From a virus, in IMG/VR virus record IMGVR_UViG_3300046791_000187, positions 1-40,802 of that record: DNA of 40,802 bases; one strand, 5' to 3'. Shown here one piece after another: positions 5,516-38,075 of this stretch. Each line of letters opens with the position of its first letter. The stretch's first letter is position 1. The translations under genes were made by a program, and so were the position numbers. The notes under the pieces were generated by a model that saw nothing but the letters and a program-made list of their open reading frames with translations, ran no database searches and had not been told where the DNA came from.

Positions 5516-6280
5516 TTAGCGCCTCGTCTGCCGATCCATCGATTGTTTCATATAGAAATCGGCAAGTTGCTGTGCCGTCGCCGTGTATTCGTTGAACTGC
5601 GGCGATGCGCGGCCCGTCACCGGGCGCACCGGAGCGGGAGCGCGTGTTACCGGGATCGGGGGCGCCGAATGACCGTTGACCGGCCGCGACGGTGCGTCCT
5701 CGATCGTGGCGGCATACTTGCCGAGGGCCATTGACCGCGCTCGTTCCGTCTGAAGGTTCGCGATGCGTTGCAGCGCGTCAGGATCGCTTGCCAGCGCCGC
5801 CGCGACCCGCACTCCCTCGTCGGCGGGCATCTCAACCAATAGCGAGGCAATCTGAGGATCGGCTCCCATCGCCATCAGATCATCGCAGCGTTGTTTCCAG
5901 TCGGCGTATTGCGCCGCGCCCTGCTGATGGAACGTCTCGGTTCTTATTTTCGCGCGCTCCTCGGCCCTTATCTCCATCCGTTCACGCTGACTACGTTGCT
6001 CCGGCGTTTCGTCCTGGGGCGCCACGTTGGCCGCTTGCCGGCGATAGAACTCCAGTTCGGCGAGTTGTTCGGCTTCACGCCGCTCGGCGGCCGCCAGCCG
6101 CGCCCGCACCTGGGCAACCCGGCGACCCTCGGTGTCACGCTCTCGGCGTTGCGCCTCCTCCTCCGTCTGCTCCGGGGCGTCCGGCTCCGGTGTGGACTCT
6201 TGCGGCGGGGGATCGGGAACGGCGGGTTGCGGCGCGCCTCCGGGATCGGGGACGACGGGGTCGGTATTGGTTTCAGACAT
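5516..6280 (-). CDS. Scaffolding protein candidate
   Basis: This 254-residue protein lies between portal and coat, the scaffold position in the P22 lineage. The first ~40 residues are Pro- and acid-rich and probably disordered. Residues 40-115 form a charged coiled coil (AQRRERDTEGRR, ERREAEQLAELEFYRRQ). A helical core follows (residues 125-190). The tail is Pro-rich and ends in basic residues (KQSMDRQTRR), as scaffolds often do where they bind coat. No protease motif is seen. The family assignment rests on position and architecture rather than on close sequence similarity. Confidence 0.7.
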   Translation of the reverse strand: MSETNTDPVVPDPGGAPQPAVPDPPPQESTPEPDAPEQTEEEAQRRERDTEGRRVAQVRARLAAAERREAEQLAELEFYRRQAANVAPQDETPEQRSQRERMEIRAEERAKIRTETFHQQGAAQYADWKQRCDDLMAMGADPQIASLLVEMPADEGVRVAAALASDPDALQRIANLQTERARSMALGKYAATIEDAPSRPVNGHSAPPIPVTRAPAPVRPVTGRASPQFNEYTATAQQLADFYMKQSMDRQTRR

Positions 6281-6285
6281 GGGAT

Positions 6286-6483
6286 TTACCGGGGAGCGTC
6301 AGGTGGTTGATCGTGATGAATGATCGCCGGCTGGTCGTCCTCGACCGCCCGCTTCGCCAGCGAGCCGCACAGGATGGCGAGTTTAGCTTCCAGATCGAGC
6401 ACGCGATCGCGTAGCCGCTCGTTCTCGGCCAACAGCCGGGTGCGCTCGTCGACCAGTTCGGTGAGCAGTTCGGTGCCGCTCAT
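6286..6483 (-). CDS. 65-residue coiled-coil protein, unknown
   Basis: The start overlaps the portal stop (ATGA). Residues 3-50 are a leucine-heptad coiled coil (LLTELVDERTRLLAENERLRDR) and the tail is acidic and Pro-rich. It lies between portal and scaffold. I recognise no family. It may be an assembly cofactor. Confidence 0.6.
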   Translation of the reverse strand: MSGTELLTELVDERTRLLAENERLRDRVLDLEAKLAILCGSLAKRAVEDDQPAIIHHDQPPDAPR

Positions 6484-8690
6484 GCCGTCGCGCCCCCTGA
6501 AGCCGGTCCTGACGGCGCCTGGCCGTTCGCCCCGTTCACGGGCACGGGTGGCTGCGCCTTACCCGCCAACGCGCCCTCAAGCTCGGCGTGGCTATGAATG
6601 TGCGGCGTGATGTCGGTCTGCTGCATGTTCTCCCAAAGTTGGCGGGCAATCATCTGAACCAACATCGGGTCAACAGATCCCAGAGCCTGGAGGCGTTTTG
6701 TTTCTGAATCATAATTCTTGATCTCGATCTCCGCGCTCTTGTCCTTGGCCTGCTCCTGGGCATGCACGAGTTGGGCTTTGAGGCTGGCGATCTCGGCGTC
6801 GGCCTTACCCAGCATGTCCTGCGCCTGCTGTTGCATCTGCTGGGCTTGCTGCGTGACCGCCATCACCTGCGGATCTGGCCCGGCCTTGTATTGCGGCGGC
6901 AAACCCCGCTTCAGCCGCTCCGCCAGTTCGTCGGCGTTGGGGAAGTCCGAGTTCGCGGCCCAGAAATCCCCGACAATCTGAAACGCCGCCGGGTTTTGTT
7001 GCATTATCTGACTGAACGCGTTGGCCGCCTCCTGCCGTTGCGTCCCGTAAGCCGGCCCAACATCGGCCTCCACGTCATAAGTCCCGACATTTGGGTTGAA
7101 AATGATGGCGGGATCGGGTTGCGCGGGGTCTTCCTGCTGTTTCTGGGCCTCGGCGGGCGAAATCGGCCCCGGCGGCGCGCCGTTCGGCTGTTGCCCGATG
7201 TATTGGTGCGCGACAGGCAGATCAGGAACGACCATCGCCTTATTTTCGGTGCCATCCTCGGCCAGCATCATCGCCACGCGCCGCGTGTCGTATATTTTCG
7301 GTATCAGATCGAGCAAAATACGACCAACCTGACGTATGCCCTTGGCCTGATTGTCCACGTAATGATAAGTCGCGACATCACTTTGTCTTTGCCGCGCATC
7401 AATGGCACGACCGCTACGCTCGTTGCCCGGCATCCCCATCTCAGCCTGATACTGACCGGTGACGGAGCGTAAATCATCCCGCGCGATCGACATGCCCTGG
7501 ATGTAGGCCTGCGCCATGGTCGGCGGCTCGACCCGCGAGGGCGGCGGGATCGGATTCCCCGCCTCATCAATGCCGTTGTAGACCAAAACGGACCAGTTCT
7601 TGACGTTCGCCGTGGCCCACTGCTCCGTCCGCCCCTCGATCGCGTCGGCACGCGCCACGTAAGGCGTCTTGGTTTGTAGCGCGACCTGCTCGACAGCCGC
7701 CGAGGCCCAGTAATTGTAGATGCGTTGGGCATCGATCTGGGCGCGTGTATGCCCTTTCCGGTCCATCTCGCCCTCGATGACCGTCTCCTCGCCAATGAAC
7801 GGCACGATCGGGATGTATCGGCCCAACCATTGCTCACGATCGATGATCCGGTTGCCGGCCAGCTTAAACCACTCGATCTCCGGCTCCGCCACGTCACGCG
7901 ATTGAACGATCAACGCCTTGACCTGATCCCGCAACTCCGCCGGGATCTCGCTGTCGCGCACCACCGTCCCGTCCTGGAGCCGATGCAGCGTCGCGTTGTT
8001 CATGTTCCGCCGCCAATATTCCGCGATCCGCACATGGTCCTTGTCGTTCCACCCGTCGCTGTGCTCCAGCGTAGCCGGTGCGACGTTGTCCTCTTTCCCG
8101 TATTCCTCCTCGTAACGATCGCGCGGGATGTCCTCAAACACGAACGCGAAATTGGCGTTCGACTTGTCGTATTCCTTCGCGTCCGGGTCCATGTAGACCG
8201 AACGCGGATTGGGCACGCGGCGGATGAACAAGTCGAGGTCGAAGCTGTTCTCGTCAACGTAGTCCGTCTCAACCCGCACGTAGCCGATGCCGCTCTCGAC
8301 CTGATGGTATGTCGCGGTGCTGTAGGCGTCGACCGCCTTGCTAACGTATTCGATGCGCCGAATGATGCCGCTGAACACCTGCGCCGCTTCGTAGCTGGCG
8401 TGCCCGCCGACAGGAGTGACCTTGATCTGGGCCTTATTCTGCCGCGCGTCGTTGATCACCTGGAGGTTGTGCTGACGCACCTGGTTGTAGGTCAGCGTCG
8501 GCCGCTCGCCACGATCAGTCATGGTGCCGGCGTTGGAATACCACTGCCAGCCGTTCTGACTGTCACCGTTGGCGAAGCGCGTATCGAACAACGCACGCGT
8601 GCGCCACGCACTTTCCCAACCAACGCAACGCTCGAACCGCGCCTTGGCCTCCTTCAGGATGTCCTCGTCGCTGTCTTTAGCGCGTGGCAT
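6480..8690 (-). CDS. Portal protein, P22 gp1-like
   Basis: The 736-residue protein forms the dodecameric vertex through which DNA enters and leaves the head. It carries the P22 portal-family pattern: an early W..R..FD.RFA.GD...QW block, RPTLTYNQVRQHNLQVIND, IRRIEYVSKAVDAYSTA, the acidic VPNPRSVYMDPDAKEYD stretch, and a late YIGEETVIEGE-like and RSGRAIDARQRQ region. The C-terminal ~130 residues are a Gln-rich coiled coil (MQQQAQDMLGKADAEI), fitting the P22 barrel. ATG 8690 is preferred over the longer frame to 8774 because AAGGCGAG precedes it and the extra N-terminus is non-homologous and Arg-rich. Its length is close to P22 gp1 (725). Confidence 0.9.
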   Translation of the reverse strand: MPRAKDSDEDILKEAKARFERCVGWESAWRTRALFDTRFANGDSQNGWQWYSNAGTMTDRGERPTLTYNQVRQHNLQVINDARQNKAQIKVTPVGGHASYEAAQVFSGIIRRIEYVSKAVDAYSTATYHQVESGIGYVRVETDYVDENSFDLDLFIRRVPNPRSVYMDPDAKEYDKSNANFAFVFEDIPRDRYEEEYGKEDNVAPATLEHSDGWNDKDHVRIAEYWRRNMNNATLHRLQDGTVVRDSEIPAELRDQVKALIVQSRDVAEPEIEWFKLAGNRIIDREQWLGRYIPIVPFIGEETVIEGEMDRKGHTRAQIDAQRIYNYWASAAVEQVALQTKTPYVARADAIEGRTEQWATANVKNWSVLVYNGIDEAGNPIPPPSRVEPPTMAQAYIQGMSIARDDLRSVTGQYQAEMGMPGNERSGRAIDARQRQSDVATYHYVDNQAKGIRQVGRILLDLIPKIYDTRRVAMMLAEDGTENKAMVVPDLPVAHQYIGQQPNGAPPGPISPAEAQKQQEDPAQPDPAIIFNPNVGTYDVEADVGPAYGTQRQEAANAFSQIMQQNPAAFQIVGDFWAANSDFPNADELAERLKRGLPPQYKAGPDPQVMAVTQQAQQMQQQAQDMLGKADAEIASLKAQLVHAQEQAKDKSAEIEIKNYDSETKRLQALGSVDPMLVQMIARQLWENMQQTDITPHIHSHAELEGALAGKAQPPVPVNGANGQAPSGPASGGATA

Positions 8691-14214: not shown

Positions 14215-14283
14215 TCAGGCCACGACCACCGTGTTGCTCATCGGCGCCACGGTCGAGCCGAGGGCGTTGGTGGCCGTCGTCAT
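14215..14283 (-). CDS. 22-residue repeat of the Ig-domain C-terminal strand
   Basis: This mini-frame begins ATGA over the stop of the Ig-domain gene and is in the -1 frame to it. It encodes TATNALGSTVAPMSNTVVV, nearly the same as the end of the gene before (TATNALGSTVAPASNAVV). It is either the stump of a second Ig repeat or a C-terminal extension reached by a -1 frameshift. No classical slippery heptamer is visible. Confidence 0.4.
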   Translation of the reverse strand: MTTATNALGSTVAPMSNTVVVA

Positions 14284-14783
14284 GCGGCGAACACCGCGAC
14301 CACGGCATTCGACGCCGGCGCGACCGTCGATCCCAGCGCGTTCGTCGCGGTGACAACGCACGCGAGACCATGCCCCGCATCATCCGCCGTAACGGTATAG
14401 GTCGCGCTCGTCGCGCCACTGATCGCGACACCATCCTTTTGCCAGGCATAGGCATAAGAAGTCGGCTCACCGCGCCAGTTGCCCATGGTGCAATTGACCA
14501 CGCCATCACTTTGCGAAACGAAGGGGACGTCCACGACAACCGGAGGCCCCGCCATGGCGACCACCTCGGCGAGAAGAGCCGCGATTTCCAGGCTGTGCGT
14601 GCGATCGTTGTTGAGCCAGTCCGTCGTCAGCAGCAGCAGCATCCGCGCCTGATCCTTGGTCGCGTCTCTCGGCGTCGCCGTCGCGGCTTTTGGCTCGGCC
14701 GTCGCGGTCGCGGCCGGCTTCCGGTCGTGCTCTCTCTCTTTGGTGTCGGCGTGCGGCGCGGGATGCGAGGGTGCGTTGGCCAT
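14280..14783 (-). CDS. Ig-like domain virion protein
   Basis: The 167-residue protein has a hydrophilic, Ala/Lys/Thr-rich N-terminus (1-45), a helical segment (ARMLLLLTTDWLNND, 46-75), and a C-terminal Ig-like domain (80-165). The domain shows the C...W.....Y.Y.W...G....G.....Y.....D.G....C.V.A.N..G pattern with paired cysteines. Phages display such domains to bind surfaces weakly. It stands first in the adhesin block. Confidence 0.7.
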   Translation of the reverse strand: MANAPSHPAPHADTKEREHDRKPAATATAEPKAATATPRDATKDQARMLLLLTTDWLNNDRTHSLEIAALLAEVVAMAGPPVVVDVPFVSQSDGVVNCTMGNWRGEPTSYAYAWQKDGVAISGATSATYTVTADDAGHGLACVVTATNALGSTVAPASNAVVAVFAA

Positions 14784-15398: not shown

Positions 15399-16772
15399 CT
15401 AAACCCCCATCCACCCCGTGCTCGTCCGCACGCCCTCGACCCACTGGCCGCGCGAGAACGACGCTCGCTGCGCCGCGACGATGTCAAGGCCAGTGTCGGG
15501 CCGCGCCTCCTTCAACCCCATCGCCAAAGTTCGAACGGCATCGCAACAATGCGAAGACCAATCATGGATCGGCGCATCCTTGAACACGCCCAGGCGGTCG
15601 TTGAAGTCGCGATGGTAGTAGACCATGCACTCGCGCAGCCGCTCGGTGCGAACACGATCCATCCAGCACCTCGGCAGCAGCATCTTCACCGCGTTGATCC
15701 CGTCATCGATATCCTGACGCGGCACTACGCGCACCTTCCGACCGTTGGCGCGTAGCAACTCCTCGCGCGTCTTGCCGGTGCCCAGTTCTCGCGCGCCGGC
15801 ATCGTGAGGAAGCAGATCGGTGGTATATCGATAGGGTTTGTTATCCAGCCAATGCACATAGTGCGTCAGTGGCTCGCCCACTGCCTCATAGTAGTCGATG
15901 ACATGCACCTCGCGGCCCACGAGCTGCGCGCAGACGATCGCCGTGGCATCGCCGATCCCCAGATCCCACGCTGTCCAGACAGGCACGGCCGGGTCATACG
16001 GGACACTGCAGATACGTCCATCAGCGTCAGCCGCGGCCATCTCGGCACGATAGATCGAACCACGAATGGCCGCGTCGAAGCTGACCTCGAGTTCCTGGTC
16101 ATACTGATCGGCGGTTAATGTTCGCCGCATGTCGTCCAGTTCGGACTGAGGCAACAGTCCGCTCTGGGATGCCCGCAATACCATCGAGAACCATAATGGA
16201 TTATCTTGGGCTTCCTTGTGGATGGCATAAAAGTCGTTGCGACCCTTCGGCGTGCCGATGAACACCGCCCAACCGTTACGGTCGGCCAGTGATGGACGGA
16301 TGACCTCGGGCCACGCACGAGGATCGATGTCGCCATATTCATCGAGCACGACGCCGTCAGCGAAGGTGCCACGCAGCCGGTCATAGTTCTCAGCGCCGTA
16401 CAGACGAACGCGGCTGCCATTCGGGAACAGTACCATCAGGTCGCTCTCGCGTTGCTCAACACCTGGGATGTCAGCGGTGAAGCGCTTCAGGTACGACCAG
16501 GCCGTGTCCTTGGATTGCGCGTAGGTTGGCGCCAAATAAGCAAAGCGTCCGTCAGGCTTCTTGCAGCGCAGAGCTGCGTCGATGAGATCCATCACACAGG
16601 CGACGGTCTTGCCGGCGCGGCGATGAACGACAAGACAGGCCCAACGCTGTTTGCGCGCATGGAACGCGGCAAACTGCGAACGCGCAGTATAGCCAAGCTC
16701 AATCTTTGATGGTCTCGTTGCCACTGATTTCGCCGCGATCGACGCCTGTAACGATGAGGACGGGGCCGCCAT
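15399..16772 (-). CDS. terL: Terminase large subunit (packaging ATPase-nuclease)
   Basis: TerL threads DNA into the procapsid and cuts it. The 457-residue protein shows IELGYTARSQFAAFHARKQR, the Walker A variant HRRAGKT (50-56), APTYAQSKDTAW, Walker B VVLDE (141-145) and FIGTPKG (coupling motif, 171-177). In the RNase-H-like nuclease, D270 in TAWDLGIGDATAIV is the first acidic residue, and the closing SSHCCDAVRTLAMG helix carries the last. ATG 16772 overlaps the small upstream gene by 74 bases. A GTG at 16722 would remove most of the overlap and keep the conserved start. Circular permutation of the window suggests headful cutting. Confidence 0.92.
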   Translation of the reverse strand: MAAPSSSLQASIAAKSVATRPSKIELGYTARSQFAAFHARKQRWACLVVHRRAGKTVACVMDLIDAALRCKKPDGRFAYLAPTYAQSKDTAWSYLKRFTADIPGVEQRESDLMVLFPNGSRVRLYGAENYDRLRGTFADGVVLDEYGDIDPRAWPEVIRPSLADRNGWAVFIGTPKGRNDFYAIHKEAQDNPLWFSMVLRASQSGLLPQSELDDMRRTLTADQYDQELEVSFDAAIRGSIYRAEMAAADADGRICSVPYDPAVPVWTAWDLGIGDATAIVCAQLVGREVHVIDYYEAVGEPLTHYVHWLDNKPYRYTTDLLPHDAGARELGTGKTREELLRANGRKVRVVPRQDIDDGINAVKMLLPRCWMDRVRTERLRECMVYYHRDFNDRLGVFKDAPIHDWSSHCCDAVRTLAMGLKEARPDTGLDIVAAQRASFSRGQWVEGVRTSTGWMGV

Positions 16773-16974: not shown

Positions 16975-17556
16975 TCACGTATCACGTCTTATGGCCAGAC
17001 ACTCGGCTTTGACTGTCACCTCGCGCAGTTCGCCGAACATGAGGACGTGGACGCGTGCGCTGTCGCCGGTCACGCGGTGGACGACAGCGTTGATGCCATC
17101 GAGGGGGCTGCCGTTGGTTAGACTACAAGGCGTCCCTGGGCGCCATGTGTCGCTGGCTGGTGGTAACGAGCGGCGGTCTTCCTCGGTCGCCTGCAACGCT
17201 TCGACAGCGCCGCCACGGACATGGTTCGGCCGGCCGCCCGACATGCACAGTTTATGAACACCGGCTGCATAACGAGCGGCGACCCATCCCTGGTCGGGGC
17301 TAAGGGCCAGGAACAGATAGTTGGGGAACAGCGGTCGGTGGACAATGCGACGCGGGGTGCCGGCCAGCTTCGCGTAGAGCGGGAGGTATGTTTCGTAGCC
17401 AGCGCGATTGAGTGAGACCGAGGCCCAGGTTTCGCTGTTCGGGTGGGTGTGGATGACTGCCCATTGGCTCGCGGCGGCATCGCGTCCGCAGTCCGGTAGC
17501 AAGATGCTCTCGGTTTCCACGCGTGGGTTGTGTCCAGATTTTTCACCGATGGTCAA
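16975..17556 (-). CDS. NusG-like transcription antiterminator
   Basis: The 193-residue protein has both NusG domains. The NGN domain spans about residues 31-110: QWAVIHTHPNSETWASVSL, AGYETYLPLYA, VHRPLFPNYLFLAL. The KOW domain spans 138-185: PGTPCSLTNGSPLDGINAVV, then ARVHVLMFGELREVTV. NusG paralogues (RfaH, LoaP) ride on RNA polymerase to suppress termination in one operon. This one is encoded between a strong leftward terminator and the terminase and virion genes, so it probably acts as the late antiterminator, in the role of lambda Q. The start is uncertain: TTG 17556 opens the frame without a good ribosome site, and GTG 17520 or TTG 17502 are alternatives. Confidence 0.85.
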   Translation of the reverse strand: MTIGEKSGHNPRVETESILLPDCGRDAAASQWAVIHTHPNSETWASVSLNRAGYETYLPLYAKLAGTPRRIVHRPLFPNYLFLALSPDQGWVAARYAAGVHKLCMSGGRPNHVRGGAVEALQATEEDRRSLPPASDTWRPGTPCSLTNGSPLDGINAVVHRVTGDSARVHVLMFGELREVTVKAECLAIRRDT

Positions 17557-17581
17557 GATGGGTCAGCATTGCTGTCGCGCA

Positions 17582-17612
17582 CAAAAAAACCGCCGGAGGC
17601 GAACCCGGCGGT
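17582..17612 (-). terminator. Strong intrinsic terminator, leftward
   Basis: On the minus strand ACCGCCGG and CCGGCGGT form an 8-bp GC-rich stem with an 8-base loop, followed by seven U residues. It lies 29 bases past the PEP-CTERM stop and 26 before the NusG-like start. It closes the moron and stands as a gate before the late genes. Confidence 0.9.
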
Positions 17613-17640
17613 CAGGGGGGAATCGGTGTAGTTAGCTGAG

Positions 17641-18480
17641 TTACGCTGTATCGCCCGACGTGGCGGCGGATGCAAGAGGCCACGCGGCGCCTCCTGAGGG
17701 GTCTGTGCGGCGTGGACGGCGGCTGGCGGTGACATAACCCAGGGCGGCCAGTCCGACGCCGAGGATGGCGAGGGCGGCTGGCTCGGGCGTATCCACGACG
17801 TCAGCGGTGGGAACAACCACCAGGTAGAAGCTCTCGGCGCCGTCGCTGGCACCTGACCACGCGGCATGGAAGAGCAGGCTGTCGCCCGGCTGGATCTTGC
17901 AGTCGGCCAGGACGAACGAGCCTGAGTCACGGCAACCGAGCGAGAGGTCGAAGCCGGAGATGAGGTAGTCGCCCTTGCCGTTGCCGTTGGCGGTGTCTGG
18001 CAGCGCGAGTGGCAGTCCGGTCAGGTCGAAGATGATGCGTTGCCCAGCGGGCTTGCTCAGGTCGATCAGTTGGAATGCTTCGAGCGTCTCGCCGTTGTGC
18101 GCGGTGTTGACGTCGATCACGACGCCGAAGTGGAACAGCGGATCGTTGCCGGATGCGTTGAGGAAGCTTTGCAGGAAGCTGTCTGTGTAGCCGACCGCGT
18201 TGGCTTCGAGGTCGCCCACGACCACCCCTCCGCCGCCTGGGTTGATGTTCGTGCTGAAGGTGTTGAACGACGTATCGTTTCCATGGGAGCTGAAGTCGTT
18301 ATAGCCGAACAGTGCGGGTTGCTGTCCCTGATTGGTGCCGCAGATGATGCACGGGGCGGACTGCGATTGGGGCACGGGGTTGGAGAGCGTTGTGACCGTC
18401 AGCGCCGCGTGCGCGGGGATTGTGAGCTGCCCGAAATATCATGCTCCGGCGACGACGGCGGCTGCGAGCGTGCGTTTCAT
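17641..18480 (-). CDS. PEP-CTERM surface protein (moron), signal peptide interrupted by in-frame TGA
   Basis: The frame opens at ATG 18480 with a signal peptide (MKRTLAAAVVAGA, then YFGQLTIPAHA). It is broken by TGA at 18441-18439 (codon 14) and is then open to 17641. The mature part begins near SAPCIICGTNQ, a start seen in secreted PEP-CTERM proteins. It ends in a sorting signal, TPEPAALAILGVGLAALGYV, followed by ASRRPRR. Such signals are recognised by host exosortase. A 19-residue tail after the Arg cluster is unusual. An intact frame exists only from GTG 18375, which would lack the signal peptide. The gene has its own promoter and terminator and probably alters the lysogen surface; the effect is unknown. 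Confidence 0.8.
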
Positions 18481-18506
18481 GGCGGTGGCCCCCTGGGTGG
18501 CGGGGA

Positions 18507-18534
18507 TTCTTACGGGATTTTCATCGTTGGTCAA
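18507..18534 (-). promoter_or_regulatory. Promoter candidate for the PEP-CTERM gene
   Basis: TTGACC (18534-18529) and TAAGAA (18512-18507) are separated by 16 bases and lie about 30 bases upstream of ATG 18480. This is the best sigma-70-like match in the area and would let the gene be expressed independently of the early operon. Confidence 0.55.
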
Positions 18535-18737
18535 GGGATGCTGGCGTGTGGGGGAGATGGTGCGCTAGTCTCCGTTCGGTTTTGTTTGACCACCACCGAC
18601 GACCACCTGAGCCGCCGCCGCGCACCCCCATGGCGGCGGTTTTTTTGTGTTTGGCTGATGCGTGCGGCCGCGAGAGCGATGCCGGCTGCCGCGAGGGTGA
18701 TCACGACGGCGACCTGTAGGGCGTAGAGCAGGATCAT
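18531..18737 (-). CDS. 68-residue single-span membrane protein, unknown
   Basis: ATG 18737 overlaps the stop of the 136-residue gene (ATGA). Residues 2-25 form one transmembrane helix (ILLYALQVAVVITLAAAG). The rest is Arg-rich and is read through the terminator hairpin on the opposite strand, so its C-terminal sequence may be incidental. No family recognised. Confidence 0.5.
   Translation of the reverse strand: MILLYALQVAVVITLAAAGIALAAARISQTQKNRRHGGARRRLRWSSVVVKQNRTETSAPSPPHASIP
18612..18646 (+). terminator. Intrinsic terminator, rightward
   Basis: CCGCCGCC (18612-18619) and GGCGGCGG (18632-18639) form an 8-bp stem, followed by seven T on the plus strand. No rightward gene ends here. Together with the leftward terminator at 17582 it bounds the PEP-CTERM cassette with outward-facing terminators. 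The two sites share the 15-base sequence CACAAAAAAACCGCC in inverted orientation. Confidence 0.75.
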
Positions 18738-29197: not shown

Positions 29198-29487
29198 GCA
29201 ATCCAGCCTGCCTTCGGGTCGCGGATGTCGCCGCGCGCTGGTCGTGCTCAAAGGGCAAGGTCAGATCCATGATACAGGCCGGGGATTTGCCGTGCCTCAG
29301 ACTTGGCACCATGGTTCGAATTCCCGTCGCCGATCTCATCGCATACGAGGCAAAATGCCAGGAACAGCCCCCCGCCTCTGCCGGGTCGCCGGACGCGACA
29401 CCTGGCACATCTACCATGAGCGCCGTCGTCTCTCTACGGGCGAAACGACACGCGCGGCAGCGGAACTCGCACTCCGGGACTACATAG
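29194..29487 (+). CDS. Excisionase-like protein (MerR/HTH_17-type)
   Basis: The first 55 residues are a winged helix-turn-helix of the excisionase type: LRVADVAARWSCSKGKVRSM, then IQAGDLPCLRLGTMVRIPVA, DLIAYEAK. The C-terminal ~40 residues overlap the integrase gene in another frame and are low-complexity, so the functional part is the N-terminus. Placed directly before int. Xis would bend attP/attL DNA to favour excision. Confidence 0.72.
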   Translation: MSNPACLRVADVAARWSCSKGKVRSMIQAGDLPCLRLGTMVRIPVADLIAYEAKCQEQPPASAGSPDATPGTSTMSAVVSLRAKRHARQRNSHSGTT

Positions 29488-30341
29488 ATGGCCTCAAACG
29501 CAGCGTCACGCCGGTCCTGGCCGTGAGCGAAATCCTTGACCGTTATCTGACTGATCGTCGTGAGCGCGCCGTCCCCGGTCTGGCTCGCCTGGAATACGCG
29601 CACAAGCCGTTGACACGTATCCTTGGTAACAAGCCGCCAGAAACGATCGGCGATGCCGAGACCCGCGCCTATACCGCGCGCAGACTGAAAGATGGCGTGA
29701 AGGTCGCGACTGCCCGTACCGAACTCCAGGCGCTTCGGGCCGCGATGCGATGGGCGGCGAACGCCAAACTGATCGCGGCAGATCCGAAGATCAAAACGCC
29801 ACCACGGCCTGAGTCCCGCGTGCGCTACCTGACCCGCGAGGAAGCGGATCGGCTCGTAGCGCACTGCGAGGCACCGCACGTTCGTTTGTTCACCTTGATC
29901 GCTCTGAACACCGGGGCACGCTCTGGCGCGATCCTGAGTCTCACCTGGGACCGGGTGGACCTCGATGGCCTGGTGATCGACTTCCGGGTTCCTGGCGCTC
30001 CTCAGACCCGCAAGCGACGCGGCAAACCTCCGATCAACGAAACCCTGCGGGCGGCTCTGGTGGAAGCTAAAGCGCTGGCGACCACGGAGTTCGTGATCGA
30101 ATGGGCCGGCGGGCCGATCGAGCGGATAAAGCACGGGTTTCGGAACGCCTGCGCGCGCGCCGGATTGTCGGGCGTGACACCACACGTCATGCGGCATACC
30201 GCCGTCACTCGCGCGCTACAGGCTGGTTTGTCAGTATGGGAGGTCGCGGGCTTCGTGGACATGACGCCCGCCATGGTCGAGGAGGTGTACGGCCATTTCA
30301 GTGATGGCGCGGCCCGTCGGGTGGCGAGGGCCTTGGGATGA
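29355..30341 (+). CDS. int: Tyrosine integrase
   Basis: The 328-residue protein integrates the phage at the host tRNA-Pro gene. It has an N-terminal arm-binding part, a core-binding domain (50-150), and a catalytic domain. R189 (NTGARSGAILSLTWDRVDL), K224 (RRGKPPINE), H277 and R280 (PHVMRHTAVT), and the nucleophile Y312 (EEVYGHFS) are in place. The second His, usually in LGH, is Phe300 here (AGF). ATG 29355 is chosen because the longer frame to 29244 reads xis in the wrong frame. attP lies 60 bp downstream. Confidence 0.92.
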   Translation: MPGTAPRLCRVAGRDTWHIYHERRRLSTGETTRAAAELALRDYIDGLKRSVTPVLAVSEILDRYLTDRRERAVPGLARLEYAHKPLTRILGNKPPETIGDAETRAYTARRLKDGVKVATARTELQALRAAMRWAANAKLIAADPKIKTPPRPESRVRYLTREEADRLVAHCEAPHVRLFTLIALNTGARSGAILSLTWDRVDLDGLVIDFRVPGAPQTRKRRGKPPINETLRAALVEAKALATTEFVIEWAGGPIERIKHGFRNACARAGLSGVTPHVMRHTAVTRALQAGLSVWEVAGFVDMTPAMVEEVYGHFSDGAARRVARALG

Positions 30342-36422: not shown

Positions 36423-37471
36423 TAGTTTAACTCCATTCGATACAGTTGCCCGAACTCCTCGGCGCCAAGCCGTCGATAGAACGTGCCCAGCCGGGGACCG
36501 GAGCCGCGATGCCCCGCCCGCATGATCACTTCATCCACACCCCGCTCGCGCAATGCCGCGAGGGCCGCCCGCTGTAGTTTCATCCCCAGGCCACGAATGT
36601 CAGGCGAAGCGAAGAAGATCGAATGCCACGCCTGAGATATATCTGGGCCGTCGAGTGTTGGGCCGATGACGGTTTGCAGATAGCCGAACATGCGCCCGTT
36701 CATCCGAGCGGTTATGGTCTGAAGCATCCCGGCATCGTCCAAAGCCTCGAACAGTGCGAGGTTCTTGCGCGCGTGATCGTCCGGCGACTGGTCAGTCTGG
36801 GTCAGATGCTCAGCGAACAGATGTTTGGCGTCACGATAGAACTGGCGGAATGGTTCGTGTTGGAACGTGATGCCCTCGGGCGGATCGACCGCGTGCCGCG
36901 TCATGTTCGCGATGGTCCGGTGTTTCGCGACCTTCGTCAGCTTGTCGAGTTGTGGCCGATGCGCTGCCATGTAACGCACGAGATGCGCGAAGTTGATCTG
37001 AATGTTGACCGGCGCGCACCACGACCACCATGCGGGATCGTGCGGCAGGCCCAGGCAGTGCTCAAACACCCGCGCGCATCCCGCTTCGGTCGCCAGATCA
37101 TCGAACGACACCGCCAGCACATCGGGTAACCGCGCGCCGATCTGATCCAGCTTGCGCTCCGACCGCTCAAGCATCGACACCATGGCCGTATCCTCGAACA
37201 CGAGATCGGTCCCGCGCAATGATGCGACGATCTCAGGCACCCGGCGGCGCAATGTGACGATCCGTGAACCTGGGGGCAATAATCGCCAGAACGGCGCCCC
37301 CATCGTCTCCACCGTGCCGGTGTTCGGCTGCGCGAGCCACGAAGCCACGTCGTCAAGTGAACGGCATCGGAGCAGTTCGTCATGGCCACATTGCCAGTCA
37401 CCGTAACTTAAGAAATGAGATAGCCATTTCGTGCGGCTTCTCGGCATCGCGAATACAATAAATGGCGACAT
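36422..37471 (-). CDS. Sulfotransferase-like / GNAT-like fusion protein
   Basis: The 349-residue protein starts FIVFAMPRSRTKWLSHFLSY, the PAPS-binding loop pattern of sulfotransferases. VSFDDLATEAGCARVFEHC follows at 121-140, resembling their second phosphate-binding region. From about residue 255 a GNAT-type fold begins: HSIFFASPDIRGLGMKLQRA (residues 283-302) with an R-G-x-G acetyl-CoA loop, and TFYRRLGAEEFGQLYRMEL at the end. GNAT-like domains are known in podovirus internal proteins near the ejection genes. The fusion itself is unusual. ATG 37471 is chosen because the 41 residues ahead are Arg-rich and read out of the upstream gene's frame. Confidence 0.68.
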   Translation of the reverse strand: MSPFIVFAMPRSRTKWLSHFLSYGDWQCGHDELLRCRSLDDVASWLAQPNTGTVETMGAPFWRLLPPGSRIVTLRRRVPEIVASLRGTDLVFEDTAMVSMLERSERKLDQIGARLPDVLAVSFDDLATEAGCARVFEHCLGLPHDPAWWSWCAPVNIQINFAHLVRYMAAHRPQLDKLTKVAKHRTIANMTRHAVDPPEGITFQHEPFRQFYRDAKHLFAEHLTQTDQSPDDHARKNLALFEALDDAGMLQTITARMNGRMFGYLQTVIGPTLDGPDISQAWHSIFFASPDIRGLGMKLQRAALAALRERGVDEVIMRAGHRGSGPRLGTFYRRLGAEEFGQLYRMELN

Positions 37472-37472
37472 C

Positions 37473-38075
37473 TCACACCCCCGCGACCGGATTCCACGTC
37501 CCGCCTCCCTGCGAGACGTACAGCGTGGTGCCCACCGCCCCATCCAACCGCGAGAACAGCGAGCCCCTCGGCTGGGTCGATCCCGGCGCCCCATTCCCCG
37601 CCGTCCAGGTCACCCCGCCCGCGGGCTTCGGCAGCAGCGCGTTATCGGCGGTTATGCGCGCGGTTCTTTCAGTGGCATCCGCCGAAATGCGTGCGTTCGT
37701 CTCCGCCGCGTCGGCCGCCAGACGGGCGTTGGCCTCGGCCGTATCATTCGCCGCCCGTGTCGCCGCCTCGGCGTCCAGACCCCCCTGGAGCGCCGTATCA
37801 GCCGCGATGCGCGCCGCCTCCTCCGCCACCACCTGACCGGCGTTGTCCGCGCTGGAAATCCCCGTCGCGTCCCCGGTGCGCCGATGCAGCGCCGCGATGC
37901 ACGCCAGCCACGCGGCGCTCAGCGAGCCCGTTGGGTCGACGAACGCCTCCGGCGGCGGCAGGGCACAGAAGATGTCGCCGTCCGTGGATGTCCCCGGAGG
38001 TGAACTCCCTGGCCCGGAAGACGGTCCTCCGTGCCGGGCGTGGCGTAACCGCGCCATGTTCCGATTCGATATCAT
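37473..38075 (-). CDS. Fibre-like protein with Ala-rich coiled coil
   Basis: The 200-residue protein has a Pro/Gly-rich start, a head-binding-like segment (DGDIFCALPPPEAFVDPTGS), a ladder of Ala-rich heptads (IAADTALQGGLDAEAATRAA, ARLAADAAETNARISADATE), and a beta end (GSLFSRLDGAVGTTLYVSQG). That last block (short G-S-L-...-G-TTLYV...GGGTW) is common at the tips of phage fibres. It is coupled to both neighbours. Confidence 0.6.
   Translation of the reverse strand: MISNRNMARLRHARHGGPSSGPGSSPPGTSTDGDIFCALPPPEAFVDPTGSLSAAWLACIAALHRRTGDATGISSADNAGQVVAEEAARIAADTALQGGLDAEAATRAANDTAEANARLAADAAETNARISADATERTARITADNALLPKPAGGVTWTAGNGAPGSTQPRGSLFSRLDGAVGTTLYVSQGGGTWNPVAGV

Follow-up and report, generated by a model that had tools for sequence, protein, structure and literature searches.

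The sequence analyzed here (the window), a 40,802-base virus record from IMG/VR, encodes an integrase (29355–30341, plus strand; phrog_1, E = 2e-46) together with terminase, portal, major head, head-closure, and DNA-ejection proteins, indicating that it belongs to a temperate tailed phage. The terminase large subunit (TerL; 15399–16772, minus strand; phrog_2, E = 2e-35) is at most about 46% identical to those of named phages, and many TerL relatives were detected in IMG/VR. The IMG/VR contigs that were compared with the window carry L-labels; its closest sibling is L040 (TerL 99%), and L041 is also very close (TerL 97%). The terminase operon is preceded by a gene for an RfaH/NusG-like antiterminator (16975–17556, minus strand; PF02357, E = 2.6e-10; phrog_6386; TIGR01955 below cut-off), which was found in many of the TerL relatives that have upstream sequence and had no tblastn match among 50,697 named phage records. 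Elsewhere in the window, a protein matching Hoc-like head decoration and tail proteins is encoded at 14283–14783, and a protein of two parts encoded in the structural-gene region (36425–37594) weakly matches hydrolase and acetyltransferase PHROGs and is possibly another surface-modifying protein.

An interrupted gene of a PEP-CTERM family (17641–18480, minus strand), recognized from its translation, a PF07589 match, and family alignments, separates the early genes from the RfaH-like/terminase operon. Its frame begins at ATG 18480, meets an in-frame TGA at codon 14 (18439–18441, minus strand), and then stays open for the next 265 codons until the stop at 17641. According to the translation and the family alignment, the TGA falls within the signal peptide: the frame reads MKRTLAAAVVAGA, then the TGA, and then YFGQLTIPAHA-ALTV, and in intact relatives a W or an M is found close to this position (AGAWFF, AGAMFF). 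The next in-frame start, GTG 18375, is already past the signal peptide. The signal peptide is thus not in the same open frame as the rest of the protein, as an exosortase substrate would need, and because the TGA cuts it, the window copy should yield no exported protein. The earlier note, which does not mention the TGA, had assumed that this genome makes an active exosortase substrate, which is not supported in view of the TGA and of the truncated copy in the sibling.

The remainder of the gene is well preserved. The conserved ectodomain (VPQSxSxPCIIC ... NGNGKGDY ... SDGAESFY; 17824–18375, minus strand) is defined by invariant alignment columns and is under purifying selection: a comparison with L003, whose ectodomain is 93% identical, gave pN 0.072 and pS 0.727. 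It is followed by a C-terminal sorting motif composed of PEP, a hydrophobic stretch, and a basic cluster (17716–17793, minus strand; residues 216–241), which in the window protein precedes an unusually long tail. This motif scores 21.6 bits against PF07589, above the Pfam cut-off of 20.7 and as expected for the tail of an exosortase substrate, and 14.8 against NCBIfam TIGR02595, narrowly below the cut-off of 16. Since 265 codons are still open and nonsynonymous change relative to L003 is so low, the break looks recent. The gene is absent from L041, and in L040 its 5' half has been replaced by other DNA, one breakpoint of which falls within the stem of the left terminator; as L040 was assembled independently, the lineage shows two instances of decay. 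The replacing DNA in the accessory slot of L040 includes, at 6050–6304, a sequence resembling the C-terminus of its own primase, which adjoins the truncated PEP gene. From these comparisons, the window copy looks like a recently inactivated, decaying member of a phage moron family.

A sigma70-like promoter candidate (TTGACC-17-AAGAAT; 18506–18534, minus strand) was found about 26 bases before the ATG, in agreement with the proposal of the earlier note that the gene has its own promoter. The block TTGACCA-nnnn-TGAAAATCC-n-G-n-AAGAATCCCCGCCACCC also precedes the homologue in L011/L124 and L188, which are the only further IMG/VR contigs having it. The promoter candidate overlaps one copy (18518–18535, minus strand) of the 18-mer CTTGACCAWCGRTGAAAA, and another copy lies upstream of the RfaH/NusG-like gene (17540–17557, minus strand). 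These two exact matches are the only ones in the window, where 0.10 would be expected with up to three mismatches. Because TTG 17556 falls within the 18-mer, the RfaH/NusG-like gene is likely to start at GTG 17520 instead. The 18-mer is kept before the RfaH-like gene in L041 (with one change), L042, L043, L046, L049, L055, L072, and L101. Considering that it is common to both genes, the predicted promoter of the PEP-CTERM gene may be controlled by the phage and not freely constitutive. In other members of the family (L036, L157, L167, and L170), a conserved TTGACA...TGTCAA block, which can be taken for a promoter as well as for an inverted repeat, lies upstream of the gene and is possibly an operator.

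The PEP-CTERM gene is followed by its own leftward intrinsic terminator (17579–17613, minus strand; hairpin -18.0 kcal/mol, z -2.9), and a second strong terminator, conserved in the phage group, points rightward on the other side (18610–18649, plus strand; hairpin -22.1 kcal/mol, z -4.0). Both had been recognized in the earlier note, which read the locus as a cassette bounded by these terminators and by 15-base inverted ends. The inverted match is real and even longer, being 16 nt and 100% complementary (17580–17595 and 18634–18649), a length reached by 1/200 dinucleotide shuffles of the region. However, each of its arms is made up of the 3' half of a terminator stem and the T-tract that follows it, and their identity comes partly from the terminator architecture common to both. 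The arms are not the ends of a mobile unit either, as the left arm is present without the cassette in five relatives (L041, L046, L049, L055, and L101); among family members it stands beside the gene only in the window (with its sibling) and in L124.

The rightward hairpin (CACAAAAAAACCGCCGCC...GGCGGCGGC) recurs in L041, L046, L049, L055, L101, L124, L188, and L190. In five of these (L041, L046, L049, L101, and L190) it is located just past the stop of an HTH gene on the strand opposite to the PEP-CTERM gene, that is, rightward in the window, whose product ends in WRVWRA(G/E)EMRR or a close equivalent; the L041 copy weakly resembles HTH_31 (E = 1e-3, below cut-off). A 38-base remnant of the 3' end of this gene, about 12 codons, was detected in the window by local alignment (18541–18578, plus strand). 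It aligns to L046 with a score of 51, compared with at most 27 for shuffled sequences, and also to L049, L101, and L041. Judging from these alignments, the slot formerly held an HTH gene, since lost, which left the rightward terminator behind. It is therefore true of the window that no rightward gene ends there, as had been noted, but the last 12 or so codons of one remain along with its terminator, and the two terminators do not delimit a unit. In L124 the PEP gene sits between the hairpin terminator and an intact HTH gene, and the same place is empty in L190. The slot is therefore an accessory site, and the outward-facing terminators came to form a pair through gene insertion and loss. We also considered a two-terminator cassette as a rule for the whole family and rejected it, since a terminator was found within 250 bases downstream in just 14/61 sequences.

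The designation of the gene as a moron survives in part. The phage is temperate by its integrase; the gene is optional, being absent from L041, truncated in L040, and missing from the slot in L190 vs. present in L124; and it has its own conserved promoter and its own terminator by prediction, although the 18-mer of the promoter is also found before the RfaH-like gene. What falls away is the cassette. On the comparative evidence, the locus is an optional moron slot in which the gene is decaying, and the cassette was over-read.

To delineate the family, IMG/VR was scanned with a protein query (37 loci) and with an alignment query (78 loci), the two sets overlapping. Clustering of the loci gave 61 distinct sequences, including one (L038_14) that is a partner protein joined through its tail. 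The family thus comprises about 60 distinct homologues on about 80 IMG/VR contigs from phages of many types, many of which carry terminase, portal, head, or integrase genes. Neighboring genes occur in many arrangements and include terminases, portals, head proteins, integrases, recombination genes, and amidases (names read from the sequences rather than from profile matches). The suggestion of the earlier note to look for PEP-CTERM genes in the same place in other phages was therefore borne out as to their presence in phages, but mostly in other places and in very diverse contexts. Two scans of 84,980 species genomes detected no relatives; they used four exact 8–9-residue peptide patterns, which together occur in 60/61 of the clustered viral sequences. 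None were detected either among the 50,697 named phage records or in 72,556 plasmids.

The motifs VPQS, PCxIC, NGNGxGDY, and DGxxSFY are conserved in the ectodomain across the family. No model in Pfam or NCBIfam covers this ectodomain, and that of the window member is also unmatched in PHROGs and PADLOC; the absence of a matching PADLOC defence model says nothing about a superinfection-exclusion function itself. When two AlphaFold models (pLDDT 71.6 and 79.8) were compared with PDB and BFVD by Foldseek, nothing matched at E ≤ 0.001, and sequence searches of PDB gave nothing credible. All complete members listed have an open, signal-peptide-like N-terminus, as judged by eye without SignalP. Taken together, this is a new family of exosortase-type surface proteins, phage-only in the collections searched, whose ends recombine separately.

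Most members end in host-type sorting tails (PEP, VPLPA, and one PEPxxWA). NCBIfam tail models matched, weakly or above cut-off, 14 members for PEP-CTERM, 25 for VPLPA-CTERM, and 1 for PEPxxWA-CTERM, with overlapping counts. Our own grouping of 59 members gave 13 PEP, 27 VPLPA-like, 17 PGPIVGAG-like, 1 PEPxxWA, and 1 other, of which the PEP, VPLPA-like, and PEPxxWA groups have weak NCBIfam support. No NCBIfam model corresponds to the PGPIVGAG type (17/59), and this class rests on resemblance because three examples scanned alone had no match. A search of plasmids with short tail peptides, intended to place tail types on hosts, gave no match, a result that carries no information on the hosts.

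Several pairs of members differ strongly in how far their ectodomains and tails have diverged. L162 and L169 are 96% identical in the ectodomain and 41% in the tail, and L027 and L150, which have a PEP and a PGPIVGAG tail, respectively, are 86% and 19% identical. The reverse was observed for L036 and L170 (ectodomain 49%, tail 90%), whose DNA is about 90% identical over the promoter and signal peptide, 40–70% over most of the ectodomain, and 97–100% in the tail, with a dS of 1.46 for the ectodomain vs. 0.20 for the tail. DNA identity profiles shift at domain borders, and the step in synonymous divergence between L036 and L170 argues for recombination and not only for selection at the protein level. 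Ectodomain and sorting tail have therefore been exchanged independently by recombination. Tail similarity is only weakly correlated with shared backbone (Spearman 0.21; 0.05 for the ectodomain), which counts against the explanation favored below.

In some phages (L004–L007, L145, L013, L038, and L156), an adjacent gene encodes another sorted protein, whose tail is of the class found in the family member. In L004–L007, L145, and L013 it is a second PEP-CTERM gene that precedes the family gene and overlaps it by ATGA in 5/5 cases inspected (L004, L005, L006, L013, and L145). In L038 and L156 the second gene, with a matching tail type, comes after the family gene. The neighbor protein at 6997–7566 of L038 is above the cut-offs for both the FxDxF-family PEP-CTERM protein and PEPxxWA-CTERM. 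No exosortase is encoded in the 38 phage records searched.

We consider it fairly probable that these proteins form a phage-specific moron family of host-sorted surface proteins, of which the window copy has recently been inactivated. Intact members would be secreted proteins of about 240 residues with a Sec signal peptide, one beta-rich ectodomain, and a C-terminal sorting tail consisting of a short P-x-P signature, a hydrophobic helix, and a basic cluster. After export, the tail would be recognized and cut by an exosortase of the host, so that the phage brings the substrate and the host brings the sorting machine. The ectodomain would then be fixed at the outer surface or in exopolysaccharide. 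Ectodomains are swapped between phages independently of the signal peptides and tails, which seem to remain matched to the lineage of the host. The protein probably serves envelope change or superinfection exclusion: the likeliest benefit would be an altered or masked envelope and hence superinfection exclusion, as receptor change is described as a common prophage strategy in a review (PMC11436027). We tentatively extend this to an exchangeable display module, a possibility that we do not hold firmly: a phage-only ectodomain might recombine freely among host-matched signal peptides and tails (PEP, VPLPA, PEPxxWA, and PGPIVGAG), in some cases along with a second sorted protein whose translation is coupled to its own, and use the host exosortase to vary the surface of infected or lysogenic cells rapidly.

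A different role would follow if the protein were made late and displayed on the infected cell during lysis, either to free progeny from exopolysaccharide or to stop their re-adsorption to debris, leaving the lysogen unaltered. In L016–L023 the family gene lies directly after the terminase and before the head genes, so late, lytic rather than lysogenic expression is possible; several other members abut an amidase-like gene (cluster 5), and the 18-mer of the window gene recurs around the promoter of the RfaH-like gene, which precedes the terminase operon. On the other hand, the family gene follows the integrase in L147, L181, and L026, and the window gene has a predicted promoter and terminator of its own, contexts which are more typical of morons. 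We regard a lysis-phase role as the less likely one, but as a serious rival. For the window copy alone, the TGA might be a sequencing or assembly error, or might be read through, leaving the gene functionally intact. One substitution would create the TGA, and the frame is open and conserved over its remaining 265 codons, but in the sibling L040, which was assembled independently, the 5' half of the gene is missing, and we find real decay the better account, with error or readthrough a minority possibility that is compatible with the family interpretation.

Two further alternatives carry little weight. The phage might simply have picked up a host PEP-CTERM gene, isolated as such genes usually are in hosts, with no phage role. 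What is reported for host PEP-CTERM genes (Haft et al. 2006, PMC1569441) and the broken copies in the window and its sibling could be explained in this way, but the ectodomain, which was not found in the 84,980 species genomes, occurs on about 80 contigs from diverse types of phage and is under purifying selection, making this origin improbable. A transposon-like cassette with 15-base inverted ends deserves almost no credence: a perfect 16-nt inverted match does flank the gene, but its arms are the 3' halves of terminators, at least five relatives have the left arm but not the gene, L124 has no right arm, and no transposase was identified among the annotated genes of the window. Terminal inverted repeats that always delimit the unit and an accompanying transposase, which define such elements, are thus both wanting, and this candidate was rejected. 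The favored interpretation is still that of a phage-specific moron family of host-sorted surface proteins.

If this interpretation is correct, a phage-only family with interchangeable host-type tails would show that phages exploit exosortase sorting, tail types would hint at the hosts of unassigned phages, and the family would provide a test of the role of exosortase-anchored proteins at the cell surface. It therefore merits experimental work. Among the papers listed from the open-access library searched, we found none on phages supplying exosortase substrates or on such a PEP-CTERM phage family.

PEP-CTERM/exosortase (EpsH/XrtA) sorting was proposed in 2006, in a paper that does not mention phages (PMC1569441); in this model, the protein is exported, held by its C-terminal helix, and recognized by the exosortase (Haft et al. 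2006, PMC1569441). The family described here resembles that system in its signal peptide and its C-terminal P-x-P, hydrophobic helix, and basic cluster, in the window match above the PF07589 cut-off, and in the VPLPA and PEPxxWA variants that it includes. It differs in that its ectodomain is unmatched and was found only in phages in the collections searched, and in that the phage records searched encode no exosortase. NCBIfam families floc_PepA (NF033554) and EDSAP-1 (NF041538) have a similar sorting tail, but the window matches to them are limited to this C-terminal part and are far below the family cut-offs. As to phage morons and lysogenic conversion, the accounts in passages of two reviews (PMC7067206; PMC11436027) share with our family an extra gene in an optional slot of a temperate phage with its own promoter, and the putative role in surface change would fit the receptor-inactivation strategies of prophages described in one of them (PMC11436027). 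Neither of the words exosortase and sortase appears in that superinfection-exclusion review (PMC11436027). The known morons given as examples in those passages (PMC7067206; PMC11436027) are surface-modifying enzymes and pilus-blocking or small membrane proteins, unlike the family described here, whose members would be surface proteins sorted by the host.
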